This document shows positions 7,433-22,836 of a DNA stretch of 54,561 nucleotides, piece after piece (the first letter of the stretch is position 1; every line of letters starts with the position of its first letter). The notes under the pieces were generated by a model, which had not been told where the DNA came from, did not search any database, and was given only the letters and a program-made list of their open reading frames with translations. The position numbers and the translations under genes were made by a program. Location: positions 1-54,561 of IMG/VR virus record IMGVR_UViG_3300009103_000042. One strand, written 5' to 3'. Source of the stretch: a virus.

Positions 7433-7678
7433 ATGAGTAAAGAAATATACGTAATAGCACATACTTATGAAGACATTGATTTAACTATTAGTGTATTTTA
7501 TAGTAATCATAAGGCTGTTAAATATGCTTCAGAGTGGTTTGAAGGTGATGGTTTTAGAAAACCTCATGATATAGATGAACCTATAGAAGAATATTTTTCT
7601 GATTATTGGGAATTTATTCAAGAGGAGCAGGATAATCAATCTAATTTAGCAATAACATTTGAAATCATTAAATTATAA
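7433..7678 (+). CDS. 81-aa hypothetical acidic protein
   Basis: This small acidic protein starts MSKEIYVIAHTYEDIDL and has a Trp/Asp/Glu-rich C-terminal half. No family was recognised. It lies 9 nt after the polymerase gene and 2 nt before the next gene, in the same run. Confidence 0.55.
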   Translation: MSKEIYVIAHTYEDIDLTISVFYSNHKAVKYASEWFEGDGFRKPHDIDEPIEEYFSDYWEFIQEEQDNQSNLAITFEIIKL

Positions 7679-7680
7679 TT

Positions 7681-8019
7681 ATGGAAGAAAATAAACTAAT
7701 AGCAGAATTTATGGGAAGAGAGTATGTAGATGAGAATTTAATTGAGTTTAAAAACTTCTCTGCATATAAAACTATAACATTAGACGAAAATGGGCATCCT
7801 GATGATATAGTTTACACTGATTGCTTTGACCCAGACAATGAATTAGAATATCATACATCTTGGGATTGGCTTATGCCTGTAATAACAAATATTTTAGAAA
7901 AATGTAGTGAGTTAGATGATATGGAAAGATATCATTGTATTATAGACCAAATTCCTCAAATAGACCATACTTACAAAGCAGTAGTAGAATTTATAAAATG
8001 GTATAATAAAAATAAATAA
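7681..8019 (+). CDS. 112-aa hypothetical acidic protein
   Basis: No domain was recognised. The product is acidic with several Trp and a helical C-terminal half (about residues 60-110) containing CSELDDMERYHCIIDQIPQ. It is packed between two other small genes with 2-nt spacing on both sides. Confidence 0.55.
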   Translation: MEENKLIAEFMGREYVDENLIEFKNFSAYKTITLDENGHPDDIVYTDCFDPDNELEYHTSWDWLMPVITNILEKCSELDDMERYHCIIDQIPQIDHTYKAVVEFIKWYNKNK

Positions 8020-8021
8020 TT

Positions 8022-8174
8022 ATGGAAAATTGTCGGTTTTGTAGTAAACCTACTCCAAATACAAGAATATGGAAATTAGGGAGCCGTAAGTTTATTTCTC
8101 CATTTTGTGATGATGAATGCAAGAGTGAGTATGAAAAAATTAAACAAGAGATAGGTAAACAAAAAAAAAAATAG
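8022..8174 (+). CDS. 50-aa zinc-finger protein
   Basis: ATG at 8022, 2 nt after the preceding stop, opens a 50-codon frame ending in TAG (8172-8174). CRFC (residues 4-7) and CDDEC (29-33) give a four-Cys treble-clef or zinc-ribbon pattern. A Lys-rich helix follows, encoded partly by a run of A. It is short, but the cysteine pattern and operon-like spacing support it. A nucleic-acid-binding role is likely but unproven. Confidence 0.6.
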   Translation: MENCRFCSKPTPNTRIWKLGSRKFISPFCDDECKSEYEKIKQEIGKQKKK

Positions 8175-8177
8175 AAA

Positions 8178-8516
8178 ATGGCAAATAATGAAGAAGCTAA
8201 AACATATAATGAATTTTATGGTGTTTACTATGATACCATTGTAAATAAACAACCTAATGATAATAAGGTTTGGACTAAAGAACATTTAGAAATGCTTGAT
8301 GTATGTACAAAAAGCAACGAAGGAATACGCAATATGGTTAAGTATTTCGAAAGAAAAGGTAAATCTATTAAAGCCATGCAAAGAAAAAGAGCATATGAGA
8401 GATTAGAGTTTTTAAATAAATTACTCCTGGAATTTGAATATCAGGACAAGTATGAGTTGCTAAAAAGCACCATATCTGAAATAAAGTTTCTTAAAAAGTT
8501 TCTAAATATAAATTAA
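8178..8516 (+). CDS. 112-aa protein, possible Myb/SANT-like helix-turn-helix
   Basis: From about residue 34 the sequence runs WTKEHLEMLDVC, then SNEGIRNMVKYFERKGKSIKA, then RKRAYERL. This is the pattern of a Trp-starting three-helix Myb/SANT or related DNA-binding fold. A Leu/Lys-rich helix completes the C-terminus. The fold is inferred by eye only. Its stop overlaps the next start (TAATGA). Confidence 0.5.
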   Translation: MANNEEAKTYNEFYGVYYDTIVNKQPNDNKVWTKEHLEMLDVCTKSNEGIRNMVKYFERKGKSIKAMQRKRAYERLEFLNKLLLEFEYQDKYELLKSTISEIKFLKKFLNIN

Positions 8517-8767
8517 TGAAACAGAATAAATATTACATATTTGGTAAAAGTGCAGTTGATATAGTGGAAGAAAATGAATTAAATTTTTCAGAGATACAGA
8601 TTGCTAATAAGATTCAAAGAGAAGATATTTTTTATGAGATATTGGAGTTTAATATGTCAAATCCAAATCCTGATTTATTATTAGCTGCCTATGATGGGTG
8701 GATGGCTCATTATCCTATTACTAAATCTCTTTATAATTTATTAAAAAAACACGAAGGTGGAAACTAA
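8516..8767 (+). CDS. 83-aa hypothetical protein
   Basis: This small acidic helical protein was not recognised. It overlaps the preceding gene by 1 nt and the following zinc-finger gene by 11 nt, so all three are probably translated in a coupled way. Confidence 0.5.
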   Translation: MKQNKYYIFGKSAVDIVEENELNFSEIQIANKIQREDIFYEILEFNMSNPNPDLLLAAYDGWMAHYPITKSLYNLLKKHEGGN

Positions 8768-9945: not shown

Positions 9946-11157
9946 ATGGAGACATTAACTGTAGCTAGAGATAGAATTCAATCAGAAGCTCTTGAAGCCT
10001 GGATAAAATCAGGCCAGAGAGGTACTATTGAAATGATTACTGGTTTGGGTAAAACCAAGATAGCTATGGAAGCTGTCAAAATGTTACCTAAAGAATCTAA
10101 GATTTTATTCTTAGCGGAAGTTAAGGATAGAGAATTAGAGGTTCGTAAGGAACAAGAGAAATGGGATACCCAGAAATGGGATATCTCATTCTCTTGCTAC
10201 CAATCTGCTTATAAGTGGAAAGGTACTGAATGGGATCTTGTCATAGCTGATGAGATTCACGATTCTTTAACTCCTGAGTATTTTAAGTTTTATCGTAATA
10301 ATAAGTATAATCAGATTATGGGACTTTCTGCTACTATAGATGAGAGAGCAGTAGTATCAGAAGATGATGAGTTTAAAATAACAAAAGGAATTCTTTTAAA
10401 AGAAGTAGCTCCTGTTTGTTATACTTACGATATTAATGATGGTCAGGTAGATGGAACATCTAGACCTTTGGATATTTACGTTATTAATCACAGATTAGAT
10501 ATTTATAACAAAAATGTTCCAGCAGGTAATGATAAGAAGAGGTGGTATCAAACTGAGTTTGGAGCTTACTCTTATAAAGATATGATATTCAAAAAAGCAA
10601 CTAGATCTCCTGATGATGTTAGACAAAGGAGAATACATGTTGCTTCTGCTGCCAGAGCCAAGTTATTGTATGAACTTCCAAGTAAGATAACTGTAATTAA
10701 GAAATTACTTAATAATATTATTGGAAGAACTATACTATTTGGCAATTCTTTAGAATCATTAGAAAAGATAACTTCCAATGTTATAAGTTCTCATAGGACA
10801 GATAAAGAGAATAAACAAACTAGAGAAGACTTTGATAATGGTAAATTAAATCTTATAGCTGCGTTTAAGAAATTAAAGCAAGGAGCTAACCTTAACAACC
10901 TAGACAATTGTGTGATCATGTCTTATTATTCAAAGGAAAAGGATTTAATTCAAAGAATTGGCAGACTCCGTAATAATGGAGAAATAGGAAGGATATTCAT
11001 ATTAGTAACTGCCAATACTCAAGAAGTAGTATGGTTTAAAAGAATGACTGAGAGCATGAATGAAAGTAATCTTAATATAATACAATGTAAAGATGTTGAT
11101 GATTGTATCTCTAAAATTGATTATTATGGAAATAAGAGAAAAGATACCCTTTCATAG
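9946..11157 (+). CDS. SF2 DNA/RNA helicase
   Basis: This 403-aa DEAD/DEAH-type helicase shows Walker A TGLGKTK (residues 32-38), motif II DEIH (102-105), motif III SAT (128-130), and in the second RecA lobe motif VI QRIGRLRNNG (about 336-345). It is the compact size of phage replication helicases such as T4 UvsW-like proteins. It could remodel forks or recombination intermediates. The ATG follows GGAAATC closely behind the previous stop. TAG stop; the next gene begins inside its 3' end. Confidence 0.9.
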   Translation: METLTVARDRIQSEALEAWIKSGQRGTIEMITGLGKTKIAMEAVKMLPKESKILFLAEVKDRELEVRKEQEKWDTQKWDISFSCYQSAYKWKGTEWDLVIADEIHDSLTPEYFKFYRNNKYNQIMGLSATIDERAVVSEDDEFKITKGILLKEVAPVCYTYDINDGQVDGTSRPLDIYVINHRLDIYNKNVPAGNDKKRWYQTEFGAYSYKDMIFKKATRSPDDVRQRRIHVASAARAKLLYELPSKITVIKKLLNNIIGRTILFGNSLESLEKITSNVISSHRTDKENKQTREDFDNGKLNLIAAFKKLKQGANLNNLDNCVIMSYYSKEKDLIQRIGRLRNNGEIGRIFILVTANTQEVVWFKRMTESMNESNLNIIQCKDVDDCISKIDYYGNKRKDTLS

Positions 11158-14876: not shown

Positions 14877-15866
14877 ATGTATAACACTAAAGGACATCAA
14901 ATACTAAGTGTTGATAATATTCTGGAAAAAATAACTGAATATGATATTTTCAAGTATTATATAGAATCATTTGAAAAACCTGGTAAAAAATTCTGTTCTG
15001 AACTAAGAGCAGATAAAAATCCTTCTTGCAGTATAAAGGTAATGGCATCTGGTAAAGCAGTTTATAGAGACTGGGCTACTGGAGAGGTTTATGATTGTTT
15101 TAAATATGTACAGCAAAAATATAGTCTTAAGTACCATGAGTGTCTAAGAGTAGTGTCTAATGATTTTAATTTAGGACTCAGTTCTGGAGACATAGAACTT
15201 AAGAAAACTAAGGCTATTATAGGTGAGCATTTTAAGAAACAACCTAAATACTCAGATACTTCTATTAAGATAGTATCTATTCCTTTTACTAGTATTGGAA
15301 AATCTTACTGGGAATGCTATGGTATAAGTGAAAATGTTTTAAATAAATATCAAGTTAAACAAATTTCTCATTATTACATTAATACTTCTCTTATTACAAT
15401 TCCTAAAAAAGAAATAGCTTTTGCATATTCTTTTGGTAATTATAAGTATAAGATATTAAGACCTTCTGGGAATAAGTGGAAATGGATAAGTAATGTTAGT
15501 TCGAGTATAGTACAAGGACTTAAACAACTAGAAGAGTGTGGTGATACATTATTTATTACAAAGTCATTGAAAGATGTAATGGTACTTCATTCTTTGGGAT
15601 TTGATGCTATTGCTCCTCAGTCTGAGAATACAATTATACCTTTAAAAATAATTGTTTATCTTAAGAGCTGCTGGAGAAGAATTATTATCTATTATGATAA
15701 TGATGATCCTGGTATTACAGCCTCTAAAGAACATTCTGAACTATATAAAGTAGGATATGTTCATAATAACCTAGATGATCCTAAGGATGCATCTGATTAT
15801 TTTGTTAGGTATGGAGGAGATAATCTCAAAAAAATGATAATGCATTTAATTAAAAAACATGACTAA
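14877..15866 (+). CDS. DnaG-type primase (Toprim)
   Basis: This 329-aa protein has an N-terminal domain (residues 34-90) that follows the DnaG zinc-domain order, CSELRADKNPSCSI... YRDWATGEVYDCFKYV. The full CHC2 zinc ligand set is not present, as in many phage primases with a zinc-less domain. The Toprim part shows FITKSLKDVMVL (about 224-235) and IIIYYDNDDPG (about 274-284). At the place of the usual Toprim Glu (EG.kD) there is Lys-Ser, a variation worth noting. It overlaps the RusA-like gene by 8 nt. It should make primers for the phage fork. Confidence 0.8.
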   Translation: MYNTKGHQILSVDNILEKITEYDIFKYYIESFEKPGKKFCSELRADKNPSCSIKVMASGKAVYRDWATGEVYDCFKYVQQKYSLKYHECLRVVSNDFNLGLSSGDIELKKTKAIIGEHFKKQPKYSDTSIKIVSIPFTSIGKSYWECYGISENVLNKYQVKQISHYYINTSLITIPKKEIAFAYSFGNYKYKILRPSGNKWKWISNVSSSIVQGLKQLEECGDTLFITKSLKDVMVLHSLGFDAIAPQSENTIIPLKIIVYLKSCWRRIIIYYDNDDPGITASKEHSELYKVGYVHNNLDDPKDASDYFVRYGGDNLKKMIMHLIKKHD

Positions 15867-16242
15867 ATCAATATTTATACCTGGAAATGTACCATCTTCT
15901 AAAAATAGTAAGCAGATGGTTATAAATAATGGAAGGACCTTTTTTGTATGGTCTAAAACAGCTCAAAAATATGTGAAAAATACTAAGAAAGATTTTGTGG
16001 ACAATGCTCCTGTGTTTAAAAGCTATGTTAAGGGACTTAAAAAACCTTATAAAATATCATTTAAATTCATAAGAGGGTCCAAACATAAATTTGATTATCC
16101 TAATCCATTACAGACAATATTAGACCTTATGGTTAAATATGAATGGATAGAAGATGACAATGCAGATGAAGTTATTCCTGTATTTGAGCCCTATAATTAT
16201 TCTAAGGAAAAACCTGGAGTAATAGTAGGAATTTTAGATTAA
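15859..16242 (+). CDS. RusA-like Holliday junction resolvase
   Basis: This 127-aa protein has the size and order of RusA: N-terminal IPGNVPSSKNSKQ, then an acidic cluster FDYPNPLQTILDLM (D79, D89) and EWIEDDNADEV (D99/D100). These fit the family's metal-binding aspartates, although the usual D-x-D-N appears as D-Y-P-N. It would cut four-way junctions formed during replication and recombination. It is coupled by overlap to the primase gene. Confidence 0.8.
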   Translation: MTKSIFIPGNVPSSKNSKQMVINNGRTFFVWSKTAQKYVKNTKKDFVDNAPVFKSYVKGLKKPYKISFKFIRGSKHKFDYPNPLQTILDLMVKYEWIEDDNADEVIPVFEPYNYSKEKPGVIVGILD

Positions 16243-16553: not shown

Positions 16554-17081
16554 ATGAGTGTAAAAACAGAAAAAGAGACTACAACATCAACCAATCAAGA
16601 AGTAGAAACTCGTAGTGTAACTATATATTCTACTCAATCAAAAAGTAGTCAAACTATTGAAACCAGTGCTTCTACATGGGGAGAGTTAAGATCCGAATTA
16701 TCTGGTACAAAAAATGTAAGGGCAGTAGTTAGAGAAACTAGAAATTCTCTAGAAGGAGCTTCTTCTAAGCTACCTAATAATGATTTTACTTTATTTCTTT
16801 ATCCTGAAAGAGTAAAATCTGGAAATGAAGAATTACTTCAAAAAAAAAGTAAAAGAATTTCTAAGATTCCTAAAATTGCATCAACTGCTTTAGAAGCGTC
16901 AGAATGGGAGAATTTGAAACTACAAGAAGCTATAGCAGATACTTTATCAGAACTTAAAGTAGAATATAATAGCGCACTTGATGAGTTAAAGTTAAAAGAT
17001 GTAGATCTTTCTTCTATATCTAAAGAAGATCAAGAAATGGCAAAGGAAGCAGCTGCTATCGCAGCAGAATTGAGAATGTAA
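16554..17081 (+). CDS. Prokaryotic ubiquitin-like protein (PRTRC C / Prok_Ub type) with C-terminal extension
   Basis: Residues 20-90 look like a beta-grasp Ubl: two N-terminal strands (RSVTIYSTQ, QTIETSAS), a helix (TWGELRSEL), strand VRAVVRETRN, then LPNNDFTLFLYPERVKSG. The last segment matches the DFTLFLxPxxVKSG end of PRTRC protein C-like ubiquitins. Unlike those (about 70-90 aa), this protein continues for 85 residues as a charged helix ending AAELRM, with no terminal Gly-Gly. Processing after Ser-Gly (89-90) by the JAB protease nearby is conceivable (inference). A strong terminator follows, and the E2-like gene comes next. Confidence 0.7.
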   Translation: MSVKTEKETTTSTNQEVETRSVTIYSTQSKSSQTIETSASTWGELRSELSGTKNVRAVVRETRNSLEGASSKLPNNDFTLFLYPERVKSGNEELLQKKSKRISKIPKIASTALEASEWENLKLQEAIADTLSELKVEYNSALDELKLKDVDLSSISKEDQEMAKEAAAIAAELRM

Positions 17082-17105
17082 TACCATTATTAATCTAAAT
17101 ATAAG

Positions 17106-17148
17106 CTTTTAGAGAAGAGTAACTCTCTTCTCTAAAGGTTTTATATTT
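17106..17148 (+). terminator. Strong rho-independent terminator between Ubl and E2-like genes
   Basis: CTTTTAGAGAAGAG (17106-17119) pairs with CTCTTCTCTAAAGG (17125-17138) around a TAACT loop, with one G-T pair, followed by TTTTATATTT. It would make the Ubl more abundant than the enzymes downstream, as expected for a modifier. Confidence 0.85.
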
Positions 17149-17162
17149 AAAATTTTATACAT

Positions 17163-18434
17163 ATGGGAGTATCAAATAAACATGGACACATGATAGAATG
17201 TGAAGAGGGGGACTTCTTTAAAGTAAAGTTGGAACCTACAGAAAATGGACTGGTTGATACTGTATTTAGAGCAGACCGTCCTTGGAAATATAATCCTGAT
17301 TCTAAGTATAATGGATTAGCTGGAACTAATATTTATAGTAATAAGTCTGAGGTTATAATAGTAGAAAGAAATTATTGTATTTTATTATCTAAAGAAGAAC
17401 AAGAATTACTAGAAAAGAAAATGGAAGAGTCTTCTCAAGAAATTATTAGACAAGATGAAAAGATTATACAACAAGTAGTTGAATCTTTAGAATGTATTTA
17501 TAAAGATAATTGGGACTTACAGGTTAATCCTAATAATCCTCTTAGTCTTTATACTGTGATTATAAAATTCCCTTCTTTTTATATAGTAAATGGAAGAAAT
17601 GAAAGGCATGAGATTAAAGATTTATATGTAAGATTTAAATTTAAAAAGGGATTTGTTTTATCCTGTCCTATTGAAGGAACAAGAGGAACTCTTAGCTTTG
17701 TTGAATATGAGTCTAGATATTTACATTCTCATTTACCCAGACTAAATATAAGATCAAAAGAAGATCTGAAAGATACTATTGTACAGGCAACTTCCTTTAA
17801 TACTTTTTGTTTAGGTGTTGGAGATTTTGCTGATATAAATTCAGAATGGAAATGCGAAGATAAAGTATTTAACCAAGAAGAGTTTGAGTTATTATTATAT
17901 CAATTACAGGCTTACGTACAATGGGAATCTCTTGGAGGAGGTCCTTACATAAGTATAAGAGATATCTCTGTAAGAGATTGTAATTGGAGAGGGCATATAC
18001 ATGGATCAGGGAGGAAAGAAGCTTTTGAATCAATAATAGCTAATATTAAGAATTTTCCATTAAAATTTAATCACTTGAGAAGTAAGTTTGAAATAGATTT
18101 TTCAGAGTTAGAATCTTTTATATCTCCTTTAGAAAGCCCACATCTACCAAAGATAAAAAAGACAAGTGAAGGAGAATATATTTATGGACAATTAACTCCT
18201 TTAACTATCAATAGAAGAGTAGATGATGCTAACGAAATCTACAAGAGTGTTTCTCTTTTTAAATTTCAAGGAGAAGATATTTCATTAAAGATTACAGGAA
18301 TAAATACTGAAGATGAAGATGATCATTTAGAAGAAGTAATACATCCTGATATAACAAGACATATAGCAACTGAATTAGAAAAAAAAGTAAATAATAATGT
18401 CATTAAAAAACAACTAAGAAATGAATTACAATAA
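17163..18434 (+). CDS. E2-like conjugating protein (PRTRC B / Prok-E2_D type)
   Basis: The middle of this 423-aa protein follows an E2/RWD order: strands TVIIKFPSFYIVNG and LYVRFKFKKG (about 131-163), LSFVEYESRYLHSHLP (177-192), then a helix and FCLGVGD with Cys216. Prokaryotic E2-like proteins carry a His motif followed by a Cys in V/F-C-L-G, so H188/H190 and C216 are candidate active-site residues. About 130 N-terminal residues and 150 C-terminal residues are extra. The 14-nt overlap with the JAB gene supports joint function. Family assignment is by motif and neighbours. Confidence 0.65.
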   Translation: MGVSNKHGHMIECEEGDFFKVKLEPTENGLVDTVFRADRPWKYNPDSKYNGLAGTNIYSNKSEVIIVERNYCILLSKEEQELLEKKMEESSQEIIRQDEKIIQQVVESLECIYKDNWDLQVNPNNPLSLYTVIIKFPSFYIVNGRNERHEIKDLYVRFKFKKGFVLSCPIEGTRGTLSFVEYESRYLHSHLPRLNIRSKEDLKDTIVQATSFNTFCLGVGDFADINSEWKCEDKVFNQEEFELLLYQLQAYVQWESLGGGPYISIRDISVRDCNWRGHIHGSGRKEAFESIIANIKNFPLKFNHLRSKFEIDFSELESFISPLESPHLPKIKKTSEGEYIYGQLTPLTINRRVDDANEIYKSVSLFKFQGEDISLKITGINTEDEDDHLEEVIHPDITRHIATELEKKVNNNVIKKQLRNELQ

Positions 18435-19578
18435 ATTTAATAATATAACTGTACAAAAAACTAAAAAACCTGAGATAAATTATCCCATAGTAACTTCTGA
18501 AAAAAAGGGGAAATTAATTATATCTTCAGAATTAAAAAGCCAAATAGATTTATTTCATCTTATAGCTGGAAGTACAGAATGGTCCGGTATTCTTCTATAT
18601 AACGTAACAAAGGGAGATATTGAAAATCCAAAAGATCTGTTAATAGAAACTAAAGCGATGTTTCCTATGGATATAGGAACTCCAGGATATACAGAATATG
18701 ACTATGATGAGAGAGTATTAGATATGTATGATTTATATCCTAATGCTTTAACAGAAGAATGGAGATTAGGACATATTCATACTCATCACAACATGGGTGC
18801 CTATTTTTCAGGGACTGATCTTCAAGAATTAAAAGATAACATAGATAACCATGCGTACTATTTGTCATTGATAGTCAATTTTGAGGGAAAATATTGTGCT
18901 AAATTGTGTGTCAAAGCCGAAAGGAATATGACTCAGAAAAGTACTTTAAAATACTCAGGGCTATTTTCAGATAAAGAGAATGATTTAACTTTAAATTCTG
19001 AGAAGAAAGAATCTATAGTCTATAGTGTGGATCTTGATATTGAATTACCTCAAGAAGAAGAAAATTCTATTTCTTTTATAGGAGAAATTATAAAACTAAA
19101 GAATACTTCTAAAAAAGGTAATTATAGTTGGGGGAATTCTAGTAGTGATTATAGAAGAAATTCTACTATTAATCTAGATACAGGAAAACAAGTAAGTCTA
19201 TGGGATGATGTAATGACGGATGGTGAAGCATATGTTAATGAAGTTGATACTATTACTTCATTTCTATGTAAAGTAATAACCGTAGATCCTGAATCTAAAC
19301 TAGACAAAGGAGAGACTTTTAAAGAATTCCTATCTAAATATAATAAGAAGTACCTTAATATGACTTCTGGTGATAAAGTTTCTTATCATAGTTATATGAA
19401 TGATAATATATGGAATATAGCTCAAAATACCGCAAGAGATGAAAGTTATTATGCTGAAGAAAATCTTCTAGAAGATTCTATTAAGTATCTAAAAATCTTT
19501 AAAGGAGTTTCAGTTTTGGCAAGTACTTTAGACGAGGTAATAAAAGACTGTTTAAATGAATTTGGTTCAACCTTTTAA
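18421..19578 (+). CDS. JAB/JAMM metalloprotease (deubiquitinase-like)
   Basis: This 385-aa protein has a complete JAMM zinc site: E53 (TEWSGILLY), H120 and H122 (GHIHTHHN), S130 and D133 (FSGTD), with the spacing HxHx7SxxD. The JAB domain fills about residues 35-165. The C-terminal 200 residues are an acidic, helical unknown. Prok-JAB proteins of PRTRC and similar cassettes process the Ubl or remove it from targets. It sits between the E2-like and E1 genes with tight spacing, in the order of known Ub-like operons. Confidence 0.88.
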   Translation: MNYNKFNNITVQKTKKPEINYPIVTSEKKGKLIISSELKSQIDLFHLIAGSTEWSGILLYNVTKGDIENPKDLLIETKAMFPMDIGTPGYTEYDYDERVLDMYDLYPNALTEEWRLGHIHTHHNMGAYFSGTDLQELKDNIDNHAYYLSLIVNFEGKYCAKLCVKAERNMTQKSTLKYSGLFSDKENDLTLNSEKKESIVYSVDLDIELPQEEENSISFIGEIIKLKNTSKKGNYSWGNSSSDYRRNSTINLDTGKQVSLWDDVMTDGEAYVNEVDTITSFLCKVITVDPESKLDKGETFKEFLSKYNKKYLNMTSGDKVSYHSYMNDNIWNIAQNTARDESYYAEENLLEDSIKYLKIFKGVSVLASTLDEVIKDCLNEFGSTF

Positions 19579-19588
19579 ATAAATAAAA

Positions 19589-20266
19589 ATGACAGAAAGG
19601 ACTATAAATCCAAGGAGTGTTAGATTTTCTGATGCTCCTTGGTATCGTCCTGATATAGATGTAATAATAGGAGGAGCTGGGGGAATTGGTTCCTGGCTTT
19701 CCCTATTCTTGGGGAGACAAGAATGTAATATTTATCTATATGATGACGATGTAATAGACGAAACTAATCTAGGAGGTCAATTATATTCTACTAATATGAT
19801 TGGTAAGACTAAAGCAGATGCTACTGCAGATCTTGTAAGTCAATTTGCAAGCAATTCAATAGAGAAAATGGGAAAATACACTAATACGTCAATGACATGT
19901 CCTGCAGTATTTGCTTGTTTTGATAATATGGAAGCTAGAAAAATTATGTTTAATAATTGGGCTAGTTCTCCTAAAAAGCAAATTTTTATAGATGGCAGAA
20001 TGTTAGCTGAAAATTTTCAAATTATTGCAGTCACCTCTAAAGATATAGATAGATACCAAAAAGAAGAACTTTTTGATGATGCTGAGGTAGAGGAAGAAAG
20101 ATGTTCTATGAAAGCTACTTCTCACTGCGGAGCTTTAGTAGCAGGGTATATGGTATCTGTATTTAATAATTATGTATCAAATTACTTAGAAAAAGGAAAT
20201 TTTAGAGAGATTCCTTTTAAAATGTATTATGATCTTCCAACATTAACTAATACTATTAAGATATGA
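19589..20266 (+). CDS. ThiF/E1-like adenylyltransferase
   Basis: This 225-aa protein has the ThiF Rossmann core: VIIGGAGGIGSWLS (residues 25-38), then LYDDDVIDETNLGGQ (50-64), matching the E1 DxDxVxxxNLxRQ segment. It also has K73, FACFDNMEAR (108-117) and FIDGRM (133-138). C172 and C180 (ERCSMKATSHCG) lie in the crossover-loop region and are candidate thioester cysteines. It would adenylate the Ubl C-terminus. It overlaps the next gene by 4 nt. The size is that of single-domain ThiF members in PRTRC cassettes. Confidence 0.88.
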   Translation: MTERTINPRSVRFSDAPWYRPDIDVIIGGAGGIGSWLSLFLGRQECNIYLYDDDVIDETNLGGQLYSTNMIGKTKADATADLVSQFASNSIEKMGKYTNTSMTCPAVFACFDNMEARKIMFNNWASSPKKQIFIDGRMLAENFQIIAVTSKDIDRYQKEELFDDAEVEEERCSMKATSHCGALVAGYMVSVFNNYVSNYLEKGNFREIPFKMYYDLPTLTNTIKI

Positions 20267-21330
20267 ATACAGTTGCTAGAAAGAAATTAGATTTAGAAAG
20301 AGTAGACTTAGGTGTAGGTACTCCTTGGAATTTAGAGGGAAGTAATAGACACACAAGGAGTATTAATATCCAGGAGAGCAGTATGATGGGGAATAAACAA
20401 AATAATATAGTTCCTTTTTTCATATTAGAGAGACCGATATACCGTAATACTTTTGCAAGTCGCAATATAGTAGATTACAATGGCTATTATTCTAGTGGTG
20501 GGTATACCTGTACACTTTCTGAAATAGTATCTACAGAGAAATTATCTAAATACCCTATTTTAGAAGATAAATATCATGATATTTTGGTACAAAATATTAG
20601 ACTTATGATTCGAGAAAATGGTGGTAGTGAAGATATAAAATCAATTGAAAATATTTTAGATCTAAAAACTGAGATAATTGATATAATAGAAGACCTTAAA
20701 ACAGTTTTTAAGTTATCTAGTATAAATAAAGAATCTTTAGTAAAATCTTTTGATTATTATGCTGTGCCTGAGGATACTACTTTATCAGCAGTATATAGGT
20801 ATAGGACGTATAAAGATGGTCTCCTTCATTTTCTACAAAGTAATGGATGGTATAGTTTAACAACAAAAACAGTAATAGATGGAAATCTTTTACGATACCT
20901 AATAGGTCCTTATTTTCTAGGAGATGTTACTAGAAAAGGAATTGATCCCTTAGTTGTTTTAGTTACTAGGCCAGAATATCTTAGTTATATAGATTATTCC
21001 CTTAGTCTCTCTAAAGAGATAGATCCTAGAATTTTTCAAATATGGGTTAATCCTAAATTTGATGTTCCTAGAAGTAAATGGAAAGGAATTAGACCTTTAA
21101 TTAGAAAAGAATTCTTAATTCCATTTCACAAGGCAGGAGTTCCCATAATTGAAAAAGAAGACTTTAGTGAATTATTTTCTAAAATAGAAGTTCCTGTAAT
21201 GGAAAATATAGGGGATTATAAAAAATGGATAAAAAATTGTTCAAAAGATACTATGTCTTTATTGAGAGAAGACAACTGTATTATTCCTGCTAATGAAGTG
21301 GTAGGAGGAGGCCAAATGTTAGAAATATAA
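20263..21330 (+). CDS. Unknown 355-aa protein coupled to the E1 gene
   Basis: Not recognised. The start overlaps the ThiF stop by 4 nt, so it is almost certainly part of the Ub-like cassette. Visible features are NIVPFFILERPIYRNTF (about 46-62), a Gly/Tyr-rich YNGYYSSGGYT, a helical middle, and a strand-rich second half (PLVVLVTRPEYLSYI, FQIWVNPKFDV). It ends VVGGGQMLEI. PRTRC cassettes carry additional partners (proteins E and F) and this could be a divergent one or a substrate or adaptor. No active-site motif was found. Confidence 0.6.
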   Translation: MNTVARKKLDLERVDLGVGTPWNLEGSNRHTRSINIQESSMMGNKQNNIVPFFILERPIYRNTFASRNIVDYNGYYSSGGYTCTLSEIVSTEKLSKYPILEDKYHDILVQNIRLMIRENGGSEDIKSIENILDLKTEIIDIIEDLKTVFKLSSINKESLVKSFDYYAVPEDTTLSAVYRYRTYKDGLLHFLQSNGWYSLTTKTVIDGNLLRYLIGPYFLGDVTRKGIDPLVVLVTRPEYLSYIDYSLSLSKEIDPRIFQIWVNPKFDVPRSKWKGIRPLIRKEFLIPFHKAGVPIIEKEDFSELFSKIEVPVMENIGDYKKWIKNCSKDTMSLLREDNCIIPANEVVGGGQMLEI

Positions 21331-21364: not shown

Positions 21365-21778
21365 ATGAGTAAAACAATTGAAATTAAGCTTTCTGGAGTC
21401 CTTCAGGATTTAAAAGATGGCTACACTAGACTTAAAACAGATAAAAACTATGACCCTAAAATAGGGAGTATTCAAGAAAAATATGGACTTAATGGAATCC
21501 AGGTGTTTGAGTTATTTAAGCATGAAAAATTAAAAGGTAAAAAGACCATAATAAAGAAAGAACCTGCATTTCTATTAATAGATGATATAGACTCTCCAGT
21601 AGAGGAAGTATCAGTAGAAGTTGTAGAGGAAGTAGAAGAAACGACATCTCAGGAAAATAATGATATTAACGAGGTATCCACTCCTGATACACAGACATCA
21701 ACAGACATAGATGATGCAGCTGAAGAAGCGGAAGCAGAACCAGTTGAGACTATTAACGAAGAGGATTCTTGGTTATAG
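21365..21778 (+). CDS. 137-aa protein with long acidic tail and SSB-like tip
   Basis: The first 70 residues form a small basic domain (KLSGVLQDLKDGYTRLKTD, EKYGLNGIQVFELFKH). The remaining 65 are a Glu/Val/Asp/Thr-rich disordered tail ending NEEDSWL. The tip resembles the acidic-aromatic tip of the SSB-like protein at 14202 (DDDPWV), so both may bind the same partner. TAG stop, then a strong terminator. The function was not recognised. Confidence 0.6.
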   Translation: MSKTIEIKLSGVLQDLKDGYTRLKTDKNYDPKIGSIQEKYGLNGIQVFELFKHEKLKGKKTIIKKEPAFLLIDDIDSPVEEVSVEVVEEVEETTSQENNDINEVSTPDTQTSTDIDDAAEEAEAEPVETINEEDSWL

Positions 21779-21788
21779 GTCAGGAGAT

Positions 21789-21824
21789 GAGGGGAGAGGC
21801 AATTTCGTTCCTCCCCTCTTTTTT
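21789..21824 (+). terminator. Rho-independent terminator
   Basis: GAGGGGAG (21789-21796) pairs perfectly with CTCCCCTC (21811-21818), followed by a run of T. It ends the Ub-like cassette transcript. Confidence 0.85.
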
Positions 21825-21849
21825 ATTAATGTTTAAATTTAAAATTAAA

Positions 21850-22836
21850 ATGGATATAGAAAGTAAAAGTATAAATATAGTTAAAGAATATAGAGCAACA
21901 GATGCTATTAATTATTCATCACTATCAGCATTAGCTACAAGTCCTCAAGCATATCAGACAAAAGATCAAATTGAAGGAATTCCAGCATTTAGAAAAGGAT
22001 CTGCAGTAGATTGTTTATTAACTACTCCAGATGATTTTCATTCGGAGTTTTATGTTATGAATAAAAATAAAATGCCTTCAGATGCAATGGTAAGATATAT
22101 TGATGAGTATTTTAAAACAAATGACCATAATAAAGCCTATATAGAATCTGGATATAAAACAAAAGCAGAGTCTATCAAAGAGAGGTTTGAGACAGAAGGA
22201 ATGGAATATTATAATGCTCTGAAAGATTCTAGAGGGAAAACATTACTGTCATTTGATGAATATGAACAAGTACAAAGAGCTGTAAATCAAATACTAAATG
22301 GAGAATTTACTAAAAAATATTTTTCTAAGCAGAGAGAAGGTGTAGAAATATTTTATCAGTATCCTATTTATTGGGAAATAATGGGACAAAAATGTAAGTC
22401 TCTTTTGGATATCTTAGTAGTAGATCATAATAGAAAAGAAATTTCTCCAATAGATTTGAAAACGACAGGAAAAAGTGCTTATTATTTCAGAGGAGCTTTT
22501 ATAAAATGGAAATATTATTTACAGGCTGCTTTTTATACAGAAGCAGTTAATTGTTGGAAAAATAAGAATCCCAAATTAGAAAATTATAAAATTAATAATT
22601 TTAAATTTTTAGTAGTAGAAACTTCTGGGTTTAATCCTCCTATGATATATCAAGCCAATACTAATGATCTAGATATAGGGACAAATGGAGGATTTGATAA
22701 ACAAGGATATAGAGTTAAGGGATTTGTACAATTAATAGATGATCTTTGTTACCATGAAGAGACTGGAAATTGGGATTTTCCTAGAGAAATGTATGAAAAT
22801 AACGGAGTAGCAATTTTAGATACTATGGAAAGATGA
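21850..22836 (+). CDS. RecE/PD-(D/E)XK-type exonuclease
   Basis: The start was put at ATG 21850, after the terminator; the longer frame from 21769 would run through the hairpin. The 328-aa product begins with a small helical part (NYSSLSALATSPQAY), typical of phage exonuclease VIII-like proteins. It then has the nuclease core: GSAVDCLLT, CKSLLDILVVD, ISPIDLKTT (D and K of the PD-(D/E)XK site), and a helix with YYLQAAFYTEA. It would resect DNA ends for recombination with the Sak4-like ATPase and SSB. It overlaps the next gene by 4 nt. Confidence 0.8.
   Translation: MDIESKSINIVKEYRATDAINYSSLSALATSPQAYQTKDQIEGIPAFRKGSAVDCLLTTPDDFHSEFYVMNKNKMPSDAMVRYIDEYFKTNDHNKAYIESGYKTKAESIKERFETEGMEYYNALKDSRGKTLLSFDEYEQVQRAVNQILNGEFTKKYFSKQREGVEIFYQYPIYWEIMGQKCKSLLDILVVDHNRKEISPIDLKTTGKSAYYFRGAFIKWKYYLQAAFYTEAVNCWKNKNPKLENYKINNFKFLVVETSGFNPPMIYQANTNDLDIGTNGGFDKQGYRVKGFVQLIDDLCYHEETGNWDFPREMYENNGVAILDTMER

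Follow-up and report, generated by a model that had tools for sequence, protein, structure and literature searches.

What is encoded by a compact row of plus-strand genes in the replication arm of a crAss-like phage, next to the genes that serve replication? The question is raised by the IMG/VR record IMGVR_UViG_3300009103_000042, a linear virus record of 54,561 bases, of which one strand was analysed over its whole length (the window). The genes at 16554-21330 are probably a phage-encoded ubiquitin-like conjugation module. They encode a ubiquitin-like protein (Ubl), a 423-residue protein that is a candidate for the E2 role, a JAB/JAMM metalloprotease, a ThiF/E1-like enzyme and a fifth protein, denominated X. 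A preliminary description had reported the first four as adjacent plus-strand genes, and open reading frames (ORFs), strand and coordinates were all confirmed. The motifs it had named, i.e. FCLG with C216 and the His motif in the 423-residue protein, the JAMM E/HxH/S/D residues, and GGAGGIGS and DxDxVxxxNL in ThiF, are likewise all present at the residues indicated. The four genes are co-directional, with intergenic distances of 81, -14 and 10 nucleotides; they are genuine genes, unbroken and strongly constrained.

Homologous loci were chosen by ThiF alone, so that the other three genes provide a fair test of order. By tblastn, ThiF matched 78 phage records, among which the Flavobacterium psychrophilum FpV group, Bacteroides DAC15 and DAC17, crAss001, the PhiCrAssBcn series, uncultured Asinivirinae, and remote ThiFs of jumbo phages. 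No relatives were found in IMG/VR by scanning with the window ThiF as a single sequence; a search with the ThiF family alignment identified 80 further loci. The order Ubl, C216 protein, JAB, ThiF on one strand was found in 87/87 loci in which all four families were detected, and the same gene block appears in the annotated neighbourhood of every examined crAss-like or FpV phage whose ThiF is a close match. A primase was detected in 91 loci, mostly directly upstream of the cassette. The family models contain the window sequence, and independent support for homology comes from the tblastn results and from the PHROG matches listed in Table 1. Residue counts refer to distinct sequences, because some loci are near-duplicates.

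Table 1. Coordinates of the module, its main residues and the flanking genes in the window
Feature	Position	Strand	Remarks
Ubl precursor, 175 aa	16554..17081	+	core about residues 20-90, helical C-terminal tail 91-175; phrog_15560 3e-8
Gly90 codon, predicted processing point RVKSG|NEELLQ	16821..16823	+	77/77 distinct relatives
Ubl tail, separable module	16824..17078	+	absent or separately encoded in cr106_1, L030, cr116_1
E2-like candidate, 423 aa	17163..18434	+	candidate catalytic Cys216, H188-S-H190; phrog_15310 4e-18
H188-S189-H190 motif	17724..17732	+	H190 81/81
Cys216 codon of FCLG	17808..17810	+	C216 81/81
JAB/JAMM metalloprotease, 385 aa	18421..19578	+	E53, H120, H122, S130, D133; PHROG match 4e-10
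ThiF/E1-like adenylating enzyme, 225 aa	19589..20266	+	candidate thioester Cys172; PF00899; phrog_15670 2e-49
Cys172 codon of ThiF	20102..20104	+	84/84; aligns with conserved Cys of PRTRC ThiF
Fifth gene X, 355 aa	20263..21330	+	overlaps ThiF by 4 nt; assigned by position
DnaG-type primase and RusA-like resolvase, upstream	14877..16242	+	phrog_12622 2e-42, phrog_1682 3e-15
Exonuclease VIII-like gene, downstream	21769..22836	+	phrog_412 6e-33; PF12684

The two enzymes predicted to act in activation and processing retain their catalytic signatures. ThiF carries a GxGGxGS nucleotide-binding motif (GGAGGIGS) and a DxD-containing tract (DDDVIDETNL), and matches PF00899 with 53.6 bits, above the 28.1 cut-off. 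C172, D54, N60, K75 and D112 are invariant in 84/84 distinct ThiFs, and Cys172, located in the cross-over region, is a candidate thioester cysteine. Searching the PDB with the ThiF profile recovers UBA5, MccB, UBA1/E1 and ThiF structures. In the JAB protein, E53 and H120xH122x7S130xxD133 reproduce exactly the JAMM spacing. E53, H122, S130 and D133 are found in all rows covering them (S130 and D133 in 81/81), and H120 in 99%. The HxHx7SxxD pattern occurs in 97 of the 5431 ORFs of the loci, and 90 of these 97 belong to the cassette JAB family. The score against Pfam Prok-JAB (PF14464) is 21.7 bits, below the cut-off of 25, and a PDB search with the JAB profile gives a weak match to CSN5. In Bacteroides phage DAC15 (L003) the JAB gene (7461-8705) has its GenBank start at 7608, which looks too far downstream and removes the stretch where the catalytic Glu lies; upstream, at 7461, there is a start in the same frame.

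The AlphaFold2 model of the Ubl is a confident beta-grasp fold spanning residues about 20-90, as the preliminary description had anticipated. The core (predicted local distance difference test, pLDDT, 92-97) is organized as beta-beta-alpha-beta-beta, with strands at 20-26 and 31-37, a helix at 42-48 and strands at 55-59 and 78-84. In the PDB, Foldseek ranks ubiquitin-like domains best, bacterial Ubls, ISG15 and SUMO among them, at probabilities near 1 (up to 1.00) and template modelling (TM) scores, by target, up to 0.68. A Pfam scan of 69 Ubl members gave no ubiquitin family among the matches listed. In nearly all members the core ends with KVKSG or a close variant. G90 is present in 77/77 distinct Ubls, and at least one residue follows it in every one: 1-5 residues in 15/77, as in the short ends KSGK* and KSGF*, and 21-252 in the others, with 85 in the window. 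Since every Ubl has residues after the Gly, the modifier comes as a precursor in need of trimming, a task that presumably falls to the JAB protease.

The joint between Ubl and tail is, judging from the arrangement of genes in relatives, a natural break, located just behind the Gly of the predicted cut site. In cr106_1 (L009, 1740-2943) a 92-residue Ubl (METR...KIKSGKF*) is followed by a free-standing HNH gene, which splits the Ubl gene, and then by the tail ORF, each of the two parts having a start codon of its own (ATG for the tail); in locus L030 a 77-residue Ubl precedes an 82-residue ORF. Phage cr116_1 (L112) has lost Ubl and ThiF and kept a stand-alone tail homologue of 82 residues (10120-10368), which starts with MSR, a tract that elsewhere comes directly after KSGA. 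The Ubl tail of cr126_1 (L008, 2320-3246) includes a ribosomal L7/L12 C-terminal-like domain (PF00542, 5e-12), and another relative has a SAP domain match (3e-4).

The 423-residue protein features C216 within FCLG and, at 186-190, the tract YLHSH. N143, H190, C216, G218, E255, S256, G259 and P261 are all invariant in 81/81 distinct homologues. Its AlphaFold2 model (mean pLDDT 81) consists of a long helix, four strands, a loop carrying His and Cys, and two helices, and this order of strands and helices is suggestive of the UBC/RWD fold. It is likely that this protein plays the E2 role, with Cys216 as the candidate catalytic residue.

From these features we infer the following pathway. The Ubl would be translated as a precursor, and the JAMM protease would remove the residues past Gly90. 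ThiF would then adenylate the exposed Gly and hold the Ubl on Cys172 as a thioester; the 423-residue protein, serving as an E2-like carrier, would accept it on Cys216 and join it to a target amine. The JAMM protease may also undo conjugates, and X may pick the target.

Several observations weigh against this pathway. The Foldseek E-values of the Ubl model range from 0.003 to 0.08 (best 2.8e-3), none passing 0.001, and the Ubl ends with Ser/Ala-Gly, not Gly-Gly: at the predicted cut the terminal dipeptide is SG in 66, AG in 10 and GG in 1 of the 77 sequences. The Arg of the canonical E1 motif NxxRQ is replaced by Gly (Gly63) in 93% of the ThiF family. Neither a target nor degradation machinery was identified. 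Moreover, a Pfam scan of 72 members of the 423-residue family gave no E2 family among the matches listed, and the top PDB match of the model, human UBE2S, has E 0.44, probability 0.41 and TM 0.40, figures that lend the E2 fold no statistical support. Of the complete Ubl/E2/JAB/E1 cassette claimed by the preliminary description, the Ubl, E1 and JAB with a fourth Cys/His protein are well supported, and the E2 fold rests on weak evidence.

Conjugation might alternatively proceed without a true E2, the E1 charging the Ubl and the 423-residue Cys/His protein acting as another ligase, adaptor or transferase, E3-like or of new fold. The lack of sequence matches to E2 families and the weak fold match would fit this scheme, as would the His, which precedes the Cys by 26 residues and so departs from the HPN spacing seen in classical E2s, and the large extra C-terminal region of the protein. 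We consider it unlikely. The alpha-beta-beta-beta-beta-Cys-alpha-alpha core of the model follows the UBC/RWD order, E2s make up 9 of its top 50 PDB matches, and its weak BFVD matches include two giant-virus E2s; the gene occupies the position of the PRTRC E2, and FNT-x-CLG...WES resembles, by eye only, the FNTWxxGxICIGS...WES of PRTRC-B. Topology and best PDB match fit an E2, statistics do not, and the assignment is only suggestive.

Hints on the purpose of the conjugation module come from the genes found in its place. In Steigviridae the cassette is located between the primase and the uracil-DNA glycosylase (UDG) genes. Three relatives lacking ThiF hold other genes in this slot: cr116_1 (L112, 9529-14584) has rIIA/rIIB-like genes, and both Cellulophaga phi14:2 (L113, 10025-15669) and cr108_1 (L115, 10277-17333) have ATP-grasp, COOH-NH2 ligase, glutamine amidotransferase and amidoligase genes, accompanied in phi14:2 by a gamma-glutamyl cyclotransferase. 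The rIIA/rIIB genes of phage T4 are known for overcoming Rex exclusion. In cr113_1 (Suoliviridae) just RusA and an ATPase are found between primase and exonuclease. That genes are exchanged at this locus speaks against an obligate role in replication and favours host takeover, counter-defence or protein modification; for a module in such an exchangeable early-gene slot the most likely purpose is to modify a protein of the host or the phage in the course of takeover, counter-defence included. Amide-bond-forming families make up two of the three alternative contents, which is suggestive of a protein-modification site. Phage phiEco32 has a similar ATP-grasp/COOH-NH2 ligase/amidoligase cluster. 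These clusters resemble the cassette as predicted amide-bond-forming modules and, in phi14:2 and cr108_1, for the primase-UDG location, but their enzymes are entirely different, and what these are predicted to attach is amino acids or peptides rather than a folded tag. It is possible, and put forward here tentatively, that the cassette is a complete JAMM-matured Ubl conjugation pathway of a separate class which modifies host or phage proteins, and that its interchange with the amidoligase cassette makes the locus a dedicated slot of crAss-like phages for covalent protein modification.

Alternatively, the phage proteins might antagonize host Ubl defences such as Bil or type II CBASS, Ubl, JAB and E1 serving as decoys or stripping host conjugates. 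The replacement by rIIA/rIIB-like genes in the slot would suit this role, and Bil-like systems are present in Bacteroides (PMC12135933). Yet a decoy could do without intact E1 chemistry, and the catalytic residues are all invariant; the Ubl family, moreover, is phage-specific, with one stray contig in a single pattern-based scan of 84,980 bacterial and archaeal genomes. This makes the antagonist role quite improbable. The cassette shares with Bil (BilABCD) and with Cap2/Cap3 of type II CBASS the Ubl/E1/E2/JAB logic, and BilD and E1-E2 models give weak scores with the phage E1. It differs in being phage-carried rather than anti-phage, in lacking a CD-NTase and in having E1 and E2 unfused, and no PADLOC model matched the phage Ubl or E2. 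As far as sequence comparison goes, it is not a Bil or CBASS system.

A sulfur-carrier system of the ThiS/MoaD type, in which ThiF would turn the Ubl into a thiocarboxylate for a sulfur insertion of phage or host, as in tRNA or nucleotide thiolation, is very unlikely. It is true that the best NCBIfam equivalogs for ThiF are ThiS-adenylyltransferase models (45.5 bits, cut-off 159), that GenBank records use the name thiamine biosynthesis, and that sulfur operons with JAB exist (Iyer 2006). However, the block has no rhodanese, sulfurtransferase or ThiG-like gene, the dipeptide is mostly SG, while sulfur carriers end with GG, and an additional invariant Cys/His protein is always present.

The preliminary description had also assigned order and families of the genes to the PRTRC type. 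The PRTRC plasmid system, or class 6d, includes Ub-like, E2-like, JAB and E1-like proteins (Iyer 2006). The order is indeed matched, C-(F)-B-A-ThiF corresponding to Ubl-(F)-E2-JAB-ThiF. In addition, both systems have a separate E2 gene and a short E1 that lacks rhodanese and conserves a Cys-Ser in its cross-over region, both are found on mobile replicons, and their ThiF profiles align with a probability of 98.6 and the Cys in register. The families are not. PF14460 (Prok-E2_D), searched at E<=10, matched 0/5 phage genomes vs 6/6 plasmids. Alignments by hhalign of the phage Ubl and E2 profiles to PRTRC C and B were not significant, also with the core cropped (probability for Ubl vs PRTRC_C 0.3), and the window Ubl had no match to the PRTRC_C model. 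NCBIfam scores fell below cut-off both for PRTRC_A (12.1 vs 101.8 bits) and PRTRC_ThiF (35 vs 144.75 bits), and PRTRC E, F and ParB models found no match among the five cassette proteins, to which the scan was confined. Other traits differ as well. In class 6d E2s the His follows the Cys (Iyer 2006), whereas the invariant His of the 423-residue protein precedes it; the phage Ubl is always extended past the Gly, the phage E1 has NxxGQ instead of NxxRQ, and the cassette lies in a phage replication arm. Because of the unmatched Ubl and E2 profiles, the missed cut-offs and the position of the His, the module would work like PRTRC without being a member. The capture of a PRTRC system by a phage, which gene order and ThiF profile might suggest, is extremely unlikely, given the failed profile matches, the missed cut-offs and the lack of E, F and ParB partners in the block.

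Trimming of a ubiquitin precursor by a JAMM enzyme has a precedent in Caldiarchaeum, where CsRpn11 cuts the CsUb precursor exactly after Gly-Gly (PMC6043591). The phage cassette similarly combines a JAMM protease and a precursor to be trimmed after a terminal Gly, but has none of the GG end, RING E3 and proteasome context of the archaeal operon. The lambda tail pair TAPI/TAPK, for which cleavage after Gly has been supposed (Iyer 2006), is also a phage-encoded Ubl-JAB pair; it differs for its function in tail assembly, the lack of E1 and E2 and the unrelated position.

The cassette is not peculiar to the window: it occurs widely among Steigviridae and Flavobacterium phages, and on many IMG/VR contigs. 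Most sampled Steigviridae, including DAC15 and the cultivated crAss001 (gp79-gp75), and the Flavobacterium FpV phages carry it. Within the sensitivity of a pattern-based scan of the bacterial and archaeal genomes, the module is essentially phage-borne. The lone match (L111, 115-804) is a 3.7-kb contig in a Spirochaetia metagenome-assembled genome, probably a piece of phage DNA binned with it. GenBank labels for the parts are thiamine biosynthesis protein, metalloprotease domain and, once, E1 enzyme family protein; the present analysis corrects the misleading thiamine biosynthesis protein and metalloprotease names carried by many genomes. The crAss-like phage literature searched, including the crAss001 and Yutin 2021 papers, makes no mention of the module, though subscription papers or preprints may hold one. 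In the papers searched nothing links crAss-like phages to ThiF, and one that mentions both these phages and ubiquitin-like proteins deals with a Bil-like system of the host. Ubl conjugation in bacteria has so far been known mainly from anti-phage defence (CBASS, Bil) or uncharacterised plasmid operons, a direction that a phage pathway would reverse. As crAss001 is cultivable, and comes from one of the most abundant groups of human gut viruses, phage ubiquitination could be tested with existing isolates. The five-gene cassette would also be a simple model for the joint working of ubiquitin precursors, E1, E2 and JAMM proteases.

X belongs to the unit by position, as an ORF is found behind ThiF in nearly all loci. 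Its sequence family was recovered by iterative search in 37/88 loci. X evolves so fast that its homology cannot be demonstrated from one lineage to another, and it is a candidate adaptor, E3-like protein or substrate. Homology of the window X to the Steigviridae X was rejected as unproven, because the window sequence was itself part of the hidden Markov model; searching iteratively from the window X does not reach Steigviridae.

In the window, the cassette genes and X sit between RusA and the exonuclease. The replication arm takes up the left half and encodes DNA polymerase, helicases, Sak4, primase, RusA and exonuclease VIII; the right half is made of giant minus-strand ORFs. A 3000-residue stretch of one of these matches 88 phage records, nearly all named crAss-like phages. 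The giant crAss-like RNA polymerase ORFs and the replication block confirm the Crassvirales-type affiliation proposed in the preliminary description.

Related ThiFs are found also outside crAss-like phages. In the jumbo Xanthomonas phage PhiXhv-12 (L013, 3214-6588) ThiF, considered as a relative and rejected, lies beside an 892-residue protein with no E2, JAB or Ubl match; the locus is possibly another phage Ubl system. A related ThiF is present in Erwinia phage Ep032 as well.

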